From assembly GCF_023746535.1 (NCBI RefSeq), contig NZ_CP098747.1, positions 2,626,501 to 2,690,500 of the forward strand: a stretch of DNA of 64,000 bases, in the 5' to 3' direction. The stretch's first letter is position 1, and each line of letters opens with the position of its first letter. The notes under the pieces are model-generated. The model was given only the letters and a program-made list of their open reading frames with translations, did no database searches and was not told the origin of the DNA. The stretch comes from Sneathiella marina (GTDB taxonomy: Bacteria; Pseudomonadota; Alphaproteobacteria; Sneathiellales; Sneathiellaceae). The position numbers were made by a program, and so were the translations under genes. Shown in pieces: positions 33,625-44,537 of this stretch.

Positions 33625-34782
33625 TTAATTTAGAAGAAAGATTTCAACTCTACGGTTTTTTGCCTCTTCGCTCGGCATTGCTTCGACCGATAAAGGAACC
33701 GAGTCACTGACGGATTCAACAATCATATTATCCCCGGCAACACCAAGATCCAGGAATGTCTGGGCAACGGCTGTTGCACGTCGCTGGGACGCATTCAAAT
33801 TTACGAGCATATGCTCATCCAAGGGTAACTCTCTGGTTCTGCTGGAGGCATGTCCAACAACCTTGAGCACACCGCCTGATCGCAGTTGCGTTTCGGCAAT
33901 TTTTCTAAGCTTTTGTTTGTCATTACGCCCGATCCGATTTGAACCTTGCTGGAAGAAAATAATTTCAACCGGCGTCGTACCATCAGAGGCCGCATAATTG
34001 GTGATTGTCCGGCCCCCATCTTCCACAGGATTTTGCAATGCGACAGCGGACGACTCAGACGAGGATTGATCTGCGGTAGAGGCATTGTCGAACTTTGAAT
34101 TTTCAGCCCCGACGACGGATGTTGCGGAAGACGCGGCCAGTTGCTCCTCAAATACCCGTTCAACACCCTGACTGCTTACGATAGTGGTCGCCACAGGAGA
34201 CGGTGTTTGAGATGTCGCAACGACCGCGGGTTCGGAGTTTTCCGCGCTCGAGACAGGTGTTGTTTCTTCGTCAGAACTTTCCGACGTGCTGGCGACAGTG
34301 GCTGCTGTCGCGGCTGTGGCAGCGATAGCCGCCCCCTCTGCGGTGGGCTCTTCCGTCACAGTCGTCACTGTTTCCGTCACCGTGGTTGTTTCTTGCGGTG
34401 CGACGACTTCTATCTTTGTCTCTTCAACTGCGACATCGACTTCTTCCTTTGGTTCAGGTGTCTGCAAAGGGGTTCCCAGCGACGTATCTGCCCGCAAGGC
34501 TTCATCAGTATACCGAGCATTTTCGCGATCTGCCCGTAACCCTTCTTGAATTTCCTGTGCTTCCGCGACCGCTGTTGCCGCCCCTGAATCACTTGGAACG
34601 GTGCTTAGAGTTGGATATTCCGCAGATTCTTCCTCGCCATCGGTTGAACACCCCGCAACAGTTAAAAAGCTGGCCACAAAAAGAAGTCCGGCAGCCCTCT
34701 TCAGAAATCTGGAATTAGGTTTCACCGGTATCGTAACAAGTTCGTCCATCTCAACGCCCGCTGTAAGATATTCTGTAATCAC
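33625..34782 (-). CDS. OmpA-family lipoprotein with long low-complexity linker
   Basis: A 385-residue envelope protein. It has a lipoprotein signal (LLFVASFLTVAGC, cysteine near residue 45), then about 190 residues rich in Thr, Val, Ala, Glu and Ser (VTETVTTVTEEPTAEGA, ATAATAATVAST). The C-terminal 115 residues form an OmpA-like peptidoglycan-binding domain (VVGHASSRTRE, NLNASQRRATAVAQ, KNRRVEIFLLN). It probably bridges the outer membrane and cell wall. A GTG start at 34782 has an AGGGA box; an ATG at 34749 is an alternative. It is divergent from phaC. Confidence 0.83.
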   Translation of the reverse strand: MITEYLTAGVEMDELVTIPVKPNSRFLKRAAGLLFVASFLTVAGCSTDGEEESAEYPTLSTVPSDSGAATAVAEAQEIQEGLRADRENARYTDEALRADTSLGTPLQTPEPKEEVDVAVEETKIEVVAPQETTTVTETVTTVTEEPTAEGAAIAATAATAATVASTSESSDEETTPVSSAENSEPAVVATSQTPSPVATTIVSSQGVERVFEEQLAASSATSVVGAENSKFDNASTADQSSSESSAVALQNPVEDGGRTITNYAASDGTTPVEIIFFQQGSNRIGRNDKQKLRKIAETQLRSGGVLKVVGHASSRTRELPLDEHMLVNLNASQRRATAVAQTFLDLGVAGDNMIVESVSDSVPLSVEAMPSEEAKNRRVEIFLLN

Positions 34783-37462: not shown

Positions 37463-37504
37463 GATTATCCTTTCAGATAAAACGGCACCCCTCGATTAAA
37501 ATAG

Positions 37505-37531
37505 ACTGACGCCAAGTTAAACGGCGTCAGT
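37505..37531 (-). terminator. Intrinsic terminator between the two P460 genes
   Basis: On the minus strand a perfect nine-base-pair stem (ACTGACGCC/GGCGTCAGT) with a nine-base loop is followed by CTATTTTAA. It lies 11 bases beyond the stop of the Cys-repeat gene and ahead of the second P460 gene. It would end or reduce read-through between the two. Confidence 0.65.
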
Positions 37532-37542
37532 CATCGTATGTT

Positions 37543-38712
37543 CTAATTAATGCGAACTTCTTCCGGCAGGAAGAAAAGACTGTCCGTATCTTCTGCTGCC
37601 ATATGGCATTCGTAGCAGAACTTGACAGCACCGCTGCCCTGCCCATTCGTGGTTCCCACCGTCTGACCATTCGGCAGAATAAGCGTGTATTTCCAGTTGC
37701 CACTGGCCTCATTAAACCCAGCCGCCATTTTCTCCATCATGAACAAGGGGCCGACAACCGCCCGTCCATCGGTCTGGACAGCGAAACTATCTTTGGCCAG
37801 TACCGACCCCACCGGCATCTTCCCGCCTTCTTCGTAGAGGGCATAGGCTTCCTCGGCCACGGCATTACCATAGTTGCTGACGTGACGGCCACCATGCGTT
37901 CCAGAGGCGTATGGCGCGGTAGAGAAAATCTTCCAATCCATATAATAACCCGCATCTTTTACACCTGATTTCGCATATGAGTTTTTCATATCTGCTTTCA
38001 AGCAATCATATGCTGAGTTGGCTTCTGCTGGTTCCAATTCAACATCTGCAACGGCTGCGGCGCCGCAAGGGCCACAAGGATTACAGGGGTTGCAAGGATT
38101 ACAGGCATTTGCTGCGCATGGATTTTTTGCAGCACATGGGTTGCAGGGATTACAGGCTTTTTTCGCGGCACAAGGATTACAAGCACCACAAGCTTTCTTC
38201 GCCGCACATGGATTACAGGCGCCACATGCCTTCTTTGCCGCACATGGGTTACAGGCGCCACATGCCTTCTTTGCCGCGCATGGGTTGCAGGCGCCACATG
38301 CGCTTTTTGCACCGCACGGATTACAAGCGCCACAGGGTTTTTTAGCGGCGCAAGGATTACAGGCCGCCGCTTTTTGCACTGAAGGAACGATACAATTGGA
38401 ACTGCTCTTCTTCGCCGCACAAGGGTTGCAGGCATTTGCAGCACAAGGATTCTTGGCAGCACATGGGTTGCAGGCGCCACAAGCTTTTTTGGCAGCACAG
38501 GGGTTACAGGCACCACAGGCCTTTTTCGCCGCACAGGGATTGCAAGCATTCTTTGGTTTTTTTGCTGCGCAAGGATTACATGATGCGGCGGCTGGTTTTA
38601 AAGTCATCATTGATACTGGGACGGCAATCGTCGTCACAGCGAAAATTCCACCAACGCCCATAAGCGCCGGGATAATGGTCGTGGATAATAGTTTTCCATT
38701 AAGTGCCGACAT
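37543..38712 (-). CDS. CNPC-repeat protein fused to a cytochrome P460-type domain
   Basis: A 389-residue exported protein with three parts. Residues 12-38 are hydrophobic (signal or anchor). Residues 45-216 hold 40 cysteines in tandem units of the form [12 protein letters not shown], with variants [12 protein letters not shown] and [14 protein letters not shown], and a [13 protein letters not shown] end. Residues 235-389 are a P460-type heme domain: [32 protein letters not shown] (Lys307), [11 protein letters not shown] and the heme site CYECH (366-370). GGGAGAGAG precedes the ATG by five bases. No histidine lies in the repeat part. The heme site implies a periplasmic location. Metal binding or thiol redox by the repeats is inference. 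Confidence 0.82.
38065..38580 (-). repeat. In-frame 36-bp tandem repeats encoding CNPC units
   Basis: The DNA for residues 45-216 of the Cys-rich protein is a degenerate tandem array with a basic period of 36 bases (12 codons), interrupted near the middle by a non-repeat segment ([15 protein letters not shown]). Neighbouring copies differ mostly at third codon positions, so selection appears to hold the protein sequence rather than the DNA. Copy number may vary between strains. Confidence 0.85.
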
Positions 38713-43788: not shown

Positions 43789-44336
43789 CTACCTGCGGTC
43801 GCCTTGAAATCTATATCAATAAACGTACTCCGCTCGACGCCGAGATATTCAATTTGATCCGTCCGCGCATCGCGAGCGCCATTTTCTTCATATACTATGG
43901 TATAAAAAACCAAACGATTGCAATTACCACACTCATCAAGCAGCGGAAAACCGACCGCAACCGTCTTGACAATTTGCCCGCTTTTCGCTGTCCCGTTCAG
44001 ATTTGTGATAATCCCGCAAGGCCGCCTGGTCAGTTCCATCATAATTTGACCAGCCTCCGCCCGGGTTTCCTCCGGATAAAAATCCAGCAGATTGCGCCCT
44101 GTAAGTTCCGTTCCTATTTGCTCGACAAGATAAGTTCCTGCAAGGCGCGAGATAATTTCGGTTTCCGAAATTGTTTCATATATTTGAATGCCCGGCAAAA
44201 GCGAAACTATTTTCGTTGGGTCAAAATTACTCCGCCGCGGCACCAGCTGATCTCGACCAATTCCACGCCAGTATAATGCAAATTGTTTGGATTCTTCAGT
44301 AATCCAGTCGATCTCATCAAAAGCTTTCATAGACAT
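43785..44336 (-). CDS. PAS_5 domain protein
   Basis: A 183-residue protein of the PAS_5 (PF07310, formerly DUF1457) family, common in alphaproteobacteria. Landmarks are YWRGIGRDQLVPRRSNFDPT near residues 22-41, SRLAGTYLVEQIGTELTGRN near residue 63 and a basic-to-aromatic C-terminal half. It has no output domain, so it may be a small sensory or adaptor protein. The start ATG falls inside the first copy of a 22-base tandem duplication, so upstream control sequence is repeated. It converges with the CAT-like gene. Confidence 0.85.
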   Translation of the reverse strand: MSMKAFDEIDWITEESKQFALYWRGIGRDQLVPRRSNFDPTKIVSLLPGIQIYETISETEIISRLAGTYLVEQIGTELTGRNLLDFYPEETRAEAGQIMMELTRRPCGIITNLNGTAKSGQIVKTVAVGFPLLDECGNCNRLVFYTIVYEENGARDARTDQIEYLGVERSTFIDIDFKATAGS

Positions 44337-44367
44337 AAATATACGCTTTCATAGACATAAATATACG
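44324..44367. repeat. Perfect 22-bp tandem duplication over a start codon
   Basis: The 22 bases at 44324-44345 recur exactly at 44346-44367. On the minus strand each copy holds CGTATATTTATGTCTATGAA, so the start region of the PAS_5 gene is duplicated with its ATG codons. The unit is not a multiple of three, so the upstream copy is out of frame and would yield only a short peptide. Confidence 0.95.
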
Positions 44368-44537
44368 CCCTATCCCACCTAGTACAAAAACCCGTTTTTT
44401 TCTGACTAGCAAACCCTGAATATTTTTGTTTTTAATTCACCTGCTTTATATACATACTTTCTTATTATGCAACCCTAGTTTGACTAACACAGATTTTTAC
44501 ACTTAGTCGGCGATCTTTACCCAGAACTTCATTATGA

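Follow-up and report, generated by a model that had tools for sequence, protein, structure and literature searches.

The gene of interest in the window (the whole stretch of 64,000 nucleotides of Sneathiella marina DNA that was analysed) lies on the minus strand. It encodes a protein in which an export-type N-terminal segment, a cysteine array and a cytochrome P460-type heme domain follow one another (Table 1). Downstream of the gene there is a terminator-like hairpin and then a P460 paralogue that carries no array. Export of the fusion protein is predicted from its hydrophobic N-terminus. Promoter-like and terminator-like sites are not above the level found in shuffled sequences, and there are no Rfam matches between positions 34000 and 42000. 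A perfect 22-base tandem repeat (2.1 copies) is present at positions 44323-44368.

Table 1. Features of the fusion gene and its downstream neighbour (window coordinates)
Feature	Position	Strand	Basis and remarks
CNPC-array::cytochrome P460 fusion gene	37543..38712	-	389 aa; reading frame, Pfam, relatives
Export-type N-terminal segment, residues 1-44	38581..38712	-	Hydrophobic stretch judged by eye from the sequence
Cysteine array, residues 45-216, 40 Cys, two blocks	38065..38580	-	Sequence counts; model mostly pLDDT <50
Inter-block linker, about residues 100-120, CIVPSV at 107-112	38353..38415	-	Motif in relatives; model
Cytochrome P460 domain, residues 217-389	37546..38064	-	PF16694; model resembles P460 and c'-beta structures
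Lys307 codon, heme cross-link position of P460	37792..37794	-	Alignments; invariant in relatives
CYECH heme c motif, residues 366-370	37603..37617	-	Read from the sequence
Terminator-like hairpin, 11 pairs, 3' of the fusion gene	37504..37532	-	2 such sites against 2.5 expected in shuffles; weak
Paralogous P460 protein without array, 213 aa	36821..37462	-	PF16694; 46% identical over the domain

The cysteine array and its relatives

The array is 172 residues long and, besides its cysteines, contains 23 lysines but no histidine, methionine, aspartate, glutamate, arginine or aromatic residue. These counts agree with those of the earlier note, which had described 40 cysteines, lysines and no histidine. 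CNPC occurs 14 times and CGPC once in the whole protein. The repeats form ten registers of 12 residues, arranged in two blocks on either side of the non-repeat linker, a feature absent from the earlier note. The earlier note had the array consist mainly of a 12-residue unit, [12 protein letters not shown]. The registers are indeed of this length, but there are only five exact copies of the unit (starting at residues 57, 69, 142, 154 and 166), so 'mainly' is a little generous. Matches of the array to zf-CXXC and Tat-protein models were below cut-off or weak and are consistent with a composition rich in cysteine.

A genome scan returned 209 loci with relatives, the best 80 of which were retained. 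By title these belong to Alphaproteobacteria or to a broader group, and near-duplicates occur among them (L057/L084 and L088/L096). With the addition of L001 and L004 these gave 81 distinct fusions, of which 79 were measured; in the other two the limits of the array could not be set. The joining of a cysteine array to a P460-type domain is real, resting on the PF16694 match and on the 79 measured fusions, and such fusions are widespread. The number of array cysteines in the 79 fusions ranges from 14 to 108 (median 32), acidic residues make up less than 1% of array residues, and histidine is found within the array of eight. None of the 79 has CxxCH inside the array, and the identification as a multiheme cytochrome, which had already been discounted for the window protein on this ground, is rejected.

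A linker motif, C-x-[VI]-P-[RSM]-[LMIV], is present in 70 of the 81 fusions. In the structure model the linker forms blocks with pLDDT of 77 and 87 and a helix at residues 110-118, and the rest of the array is mostly below 50. The array is thus predicted to be mostly disordered and, as this holds for the array alone, a metal-free structure would be uninformative. The suggestion that the CxPC spacing might reflect a thioredoxin-type disulfide relay is not supported, since no fold is predicted for the array, there is one CGPC against 14 CNPC and Pfam gives no thioredoxin match.

A tree built from P460 domains places the window protein among the Sneathiella rows. The paralogues that lack an array, eight in number, group together (support 95/83), which is compatible with the fusion having arisen once; one row scored as unfused, L095, does carry an NPC array. 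Within the genus, 19 of the 23 genomes searched have a match to the fusion or to a small array. Searches of the plasmid collection for the fusion and of the phage collection for the window P460 domain gave no match.

Small stand-alone arrays occur in 27 of the best 80 of the 209 loci, and also in L003. These are small exported proteins sharing the kind of unit found in the fused array. Another such gene is present in the S. marina genome at about 416 kb, after genes for a VTT-domain protein and a pyridine nucleotide-disulfide oxidoreductase. The export segments of fusions and small arrays have in common a recurring K-LLST/LLSS...P...G motif (for example in L042, L050, L063 and L077), which is possibly a special export or sorting signal.

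The cysteine array is under selection at the protein level. Its 11 copies of CNPCAAK[KN] are encoded by 11 different DNA sequences, although these copies were picked by protein motif and their low pN is there by construction. Ten registers chosen by position gave pS of 0.845 and pN of 0.103. In comparisons with seven relatives, pN/pS was 0.033-0.127 for the array and 0.113-0.230 for the P460 domain and was lower for the array in all seven pairs, a contrast that is an upper estimate because repeat-aware alignment favours low pN in arrays. Synonymous sites in the array are near saturation, and array length changes between relatives by gaps. The earlier note had taken random variation of the repeats, or a lack of conserved cysteines in homologues, as the finding that would speak against a functional array; in the seven relatives 181 of 188 aligned array cysteines are kept and seven are replaced.

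The heme domain

PF16694 matches residues 257-380 (E 3.4e-10; 40.8 bits against a cut-off of 27) and CYECH falls within this match, in agreement with the placing of a heme domain with this motif after the array. The modelled domain resembles Thermus cytochrome c'-beta 7ead (Z 11.0, rmsd 3.1, 124 residues aligned) and Methylococcus cytochrome P460 9hrk (Z 10.8, rmsd 3.2, 131 aligned) almost equally. The fold alone therefore cannot separate P460 from c'-beta, but the sequence does. Lys307, invariant in 46 and in 30 aligned rows, aligns with Lys70 of Nitrosomonas P460 (NeP460), Met79 of NeCP-beta and Phe61 of McCP-beta, residues that are named in a P460 review (PMC11928373). The window protein thus shares a fold with cytochrome c'-beta but has Lys307 in place of Phe61 or Met79, and a c'-beta identity is rejected because this lysine is invariant in the 46 rows, at a position where c'-beta has a non-lysine residue.

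The protein is like cytochrome P460 in its Pfam match above cut-off, its CxxCH and its lysine at the cross-link position. It differs in its N-terminal array and in having no acidic residue at the position aligned with the distal carboxylate: the aligned counterpart of Glu96 in NeP460 is Phe324 or Gly332, according to which of two alignments is used. A nearby glutamate, Glu327, is more than 90% conserved. Since the residue at the position of the proton-accepting carboxylate is non-acidic, oxidation of hydroxylamine is not predicted. By its sequence the domain is likely to be a P460-type and possibly non-oxidising heme, with a putative cross-link to lysine. P460 and c'-beta domains are described in the consulted part of the same review (PMC11928373) as oxidising hydroxylamine or binding NO and other gases.

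Genes that accompany the arrays

Neighbouring genes were counted within 5 kb on each side of the best 80 of the 209 loci, using BLAST clusters with one Pfam-scanned representative each. The genes came from a simple caller that got some frames wrong, as with 'P460only' in L061, and the count for the FGE-like protein is accordingly a lower bound. Among these best 80 loci DUF6969 (PF22308) is present in 40, an FGE-like protein in at least 30, the sulfur transporter YedE (PF04143) in 15 and SNase also in 15. An exported protein without family assignment is found in 11, MsrB (by its sequence a repair enzyme, named by eye) in eight and a cupredoxin-family protein in five. Gene order and orientation differ between groups of loci, and inherited order alone therefore does not explain the association. 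Neither YedE nor rhodanese lies beside the window gene.

The link with DUF6969 is also seen across whole genomes. Within 192 genomes of the class, DUF6969 is present in 26 of 28 array genomes and in 20 of 164 others (p 2e-17, a value inflated, like all p-values here, by relatedness between genomes); the corresponding figures for the FGE subfamily are 13 of 28 and one of 164. For this strict count eight of the 36 matching genomes were set aside (four P460-only and four doubtful); with all 36 included, DUF6969 is found in 28 of 36 against 18 of 156. In the 26 genomes with both, array and DUF6969 are no more than 5 kb apart in 19, 6.6 kb apart in one, far apart on one contig in two and on different contigs in four. 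S. marina is one of the two with a large separation: its DUF6969 gene is adjacent to its FGE-like gene at about 3255 kb, beside a cytochrome c gene and 0.59 Mb from the fusion. DUF6969 is missing from two of the 28 array genomes and from all 21 f153 genomes with array matches, so it is not obligatory. The spread of the fusion, the conserved linker and the system of DUF6969, FGE and YedE genes were not visible from the window alone; what is new here is that the array belongs to a gene system with DUF6969, the FGE-like protein, small arrays and YedE.

DUF6969 has 42 residues invariant in 31 sequences, including His55, 73, 75, 84, 86 and 118, Glu52, Glu81, Asp60 and Asp63, and has no evident export signal. 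From these residues it may be a metal-dependent enzyme. Its model is confident (mean pLDDT 87.8) and the best PDB match reaches Z 4.4 among 653 compared chains, which does not show that the fold is new.

The FGE-like protein of S. marina, which its N-terminus predicts, by eye, to be exported, resembles the formylglycine-generating enzyme family in its PF03781 domain (E 5.9e-43); the nearest PDB sequence to the profile is 7spq (E 2.3e-37). It has a CGxC that is invariant in 28 of 28 sequences and may correspond to the two copper-binding cysteines of FGE; across this stretch the PDB alignments are not to true FGE. CxPxR is the target motif of FGE, and most array regions are without it: it occurs in six of the 81 fusions (absent in 75), in none of 30 small arrays and not in the window fusion. 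By this motif the array is not predicted to be a substrate of FGE. True FGE enzymes use copper (PMC4505483, PMC12123546).

DUF6969 is also found, though not in every case, near cysteine-rich genes where the fusion is lacking or weakly matched. We read 20 DUF6969 loci, 18 from genomes without a fusion match and two with weak matches (G134 and G220); five are cut short by contig ends (L128, L129, L133, L136 and L137). In eight of the 20 (L120, L121, L122, L128, L130, L136, L138 and L139) there is a cysteine-rich repeat gene within about 2.5 kb of DUF6969, with units that differ from locus to locus, and none was visible by eye in the other 12. An automated repeat detector picked up six of the 20, L122 and L128 having been recognised by eye instead, and none of 20 control regions drawn from 16 of these genomes. 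What these repeats of unlike sequence share is mainly cysteine. One very different cysteine repeat, EGCCAAEGC, is found in an acidic, lipoprotein-like protein adjoining DUF6969 (L130:6182-6520). In L121 an RND efflux pump and ChrB lie near the cysteine-rich protein and DUF6969, but tblastn places an MNIO gene about 2.2 kb from the cysteine-rich gene, which weakens this locus as a DUF6969 case because the protein may be an MNIO client.

Further examples come from plasmids and smaller arrays. On a Burkholderia glumae plasmid (NZ_CP100267.1; L202:5592-6684) an exported KCAPKC protein adjoins DUF6969 inside an arsenosugar biosynthesis cluster, near which thioredoxin and CcdA genes were also observed. 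On a Skermanella plasmid an NPCAAK protein adjoins DUF6969, DUF302, a sigma factor and NrsF; two Azospirillum plasmids have no cysteine-rich repeat near DUF6969. Small arrays precede DUF6969 in L191, L192 and L194, and YedE and rhodanese were identified with Pfam beside array and DUF6969 in L122 and L191.

Outside the class, NPC-type arrays are fused to SoxA/TsdA cytochrome c (PF21342; E 3e-12 in L181 and 6e-10 in L193), and in L193 the fusion adjoins DUF6969. By eye, another nine of the loci L180-L190 (11 in all) resemble fusions of this kind. A multiheme cytochrome-like gene lies near nine of the 11, usually after the fusion (that of L180 was tested), and the arrays are rich in methionine and histidine as well as cysteine. 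Like the window protein, the SoxA/TsdA proteins of L181 and L193 combine an NPC-type array and a c-type heme in one chain. They differ from it in heme fold and, in some lineages, in lacking DUF6969 and in having methionine and histidine in the array. Two neighbours in L184 resemble ArsS and ArsM by eye.

Possible cargo and function of the arrays

Taken together, the fusion and the array system suggest a novel kind of sponge or carrier built on thiols, whose load would be metals or sulfur, and the neighbours in related loci fit soft metals, arsenic or sulfur. Our preferred reading, which we hold tentatively and at somewhat less than even confidence, is that the window protein, a polythiol joined to a P460-type heme, is exported and buffers soft metals or metalloids, in the manner of a bufferin or metallothionein but with other partners. 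The protein would be a largely unfolded polythiol chain whose closely spaced CNPC thiols capture thiophilic species in the periplasm, array length determining how much can be held. They would most probably take up Cu(I) or else a different soft metal or a metalloid, As(III) for instance, and the terminal heme would be a redox or ligand-binding partner that acts on the cargo or is protected by the chain. The array proteins would probably be clients of DUF6969 and, in this branch, of the exported FGE-like protein.

In favour of a soft-metal buffer are the tighter constraint on the array than on the P460 domain, the co-occurrence with DUF6969 and FGE, the range of 14 to 108 cysteines and the low acidic content. 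We also count for it the methionine and histidine beside cysteine in arrays outside the class and a metal or metalloid context at single loci: the arsenosugar genes of B. glumae, the RND pump and ChrB of L121, and the cupredoxin-family protein in five of the best 80 of the 209 loci. Against it, there is no recurrent recognised metal-resistance gene in the best 80 of the 209 loci, YedE is as prominent among those 80 as the hints of copper, and the window array has neither methionine nor histidine. Additionally, the DUF6969 and FGE genes of S. marina are 0.59 Mb from the fusion and DUF6969 is missing from two array genomes and all 21 f153 genomes.

The closest known comparison is with bufferins and oxazolins, which PMC12452194 describes as MNIO-modified, cysteine-rich, exported metallophores; bufferins are periplasmic copper chelators, and some are reported as fused to Cytochrom_C and FGE domains. 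The fusion is like them in its export-type N-terminus, its richness in cysteine and, for some members, in repeats and in Cytochrom_C or FGE partners. It differs in having DUF6969 as its partner and in matching no DUF2282 or bufferin family model in Pfam or NCBIfam. In tblastn searches with the MNIO of S. marina, which a distant MNIO could escape, there was none in the best 80 of the 209 loci and one in 92 other loci, that of L121. The only MNIO of S. marina (PF05114) lies at about 1283 kb (L113) in a row with DUF2282, DUF2063 and DoxX, which is a Buf1-type bufferin cluster. A standard bufferin is rejected because tblastn shows no MNIO in the 80 fusion loci, no family model matches and the MNIO of S. 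marina has a cluster of its own. Metallothioneins are likewise rich in cysteine and, like them, the window array has no aromatic residues, but the window protein has no metallothionein match in Pfam, is predicted to be exported and is fused to heme c.

It is possible, although we consider it on the unlikely side, that polycysteine carriers which are made on the ribosome and exported form an undescribed class, and that DUF6969 serves them as maturase or dedicated chaperone. DUF6969 would recognise or chemically modify cysteines in unlike arrays (CNPCAAK, CSPC, NPCAAG, CGGS, EGCCAAEGC and KCAPKC), and the matured chain, joined to a c-type heme that is P460 in the window and SoxA/TsdA elsewhere, would couple capture of cargo to redox chemistry. 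By analogy, such maturation would parallel the MNIO-bufferin system and not derive from it.

The main rival to the metal buffer is a carrier of sulfane sulfur or thiosulfate, in which the attached c-type heme would help to load persulfide, polysulfide or thiosulfonate onto the array cysteines, for unloading towards YedE and rhodanese. We regard this as doubtful, with the following points in its favour. SoxXA loads SoxY, similar arrays are fused to SoxA/TsdA cytochrome c outside the class, YedE is in 15 of the best 80 of the 209 loci and, together with rhodanese, it stands beside array and DUF6969 in L122 and L191 and, by annotation, in the Sinorhizobium meliloti region described below. However, a SoxY-type carrier has one cysteine and needs no arrays of cysteine pairs, and the window gene has no adjoining YedE or rhodanese. 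Additionally, the heme of the window protein is of the P460 type, known members of which act on hydroxylamine or bind gases according to the consulted text of PMC11928373.

A redox or nitrosative sink, with thiols that scavenge NO, nitrosative species or oxidants in the vicinity of the P460 heme and an array that protects the heme or feeds it electrons, is improbable. The binding of NO or oxidation of hydroxylamine by P460 and c'-beta domains (PMC11928373, in the part consulted) and the MsrB named by eye in eight of the best 80 of the 209 loci are consistent with it, but heme-free stand-alone arrays recur (27 of the same 80 loci, and L003), the non-acidic carboxylate position does not predict hydroxylamine oxidation and a disordered array is no known relay fold. 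Less probable still is a low-complexity tether or spacer that gives length and flexibility to the heme domain or anchors it, its cysteines forming plain disulfides: the several-fold variation of array length among relatives, by gaps, and the predicted disorder would suit it, but cysteines are among the most conserved residues (seven of 188 lost), the unit also occurs as separate small exported proteins and the unlike repeats near DUF6969 share mainly cysteine.

Searches of open-licence PubMed Central found nothing on the CNPC/CxPC repeat, DUF6969 or this fusion, and no paper with 'cytochrome P460' together with 'cysteine-rich'. The word 'fusion' is absent from the searched text of the P460 review (PMC11928373), as are 'P460' and 'CNPC' from that of PMC12452194. 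If the metal buffer and its maturation by DUF6969 are correct, a Pfam family without known function would acquire a client and a role open to experiment, and there would be a hypothesis for a polythiol-heme protein that is widespread in Alphaproteobacteria. S. meliloti offers a tractable model, with DUF6969 next to YeeE/YedE and a sulfurtransferase, and because DUF6969 is present there the metal, arsenic and sulfur readings should be separable by ordinary gene deletions. In S. meliloti CP050512.1 an unannotated, proline-rich reading frame with four cysteines (L203:5629-5996; beginning MTTRNTLLFG) lies between YeeE/YedE and DUF6969, with a sulfurtransferase/rhodanese annotated nearby, and the same reading frame is present in strain SM11 (L204).
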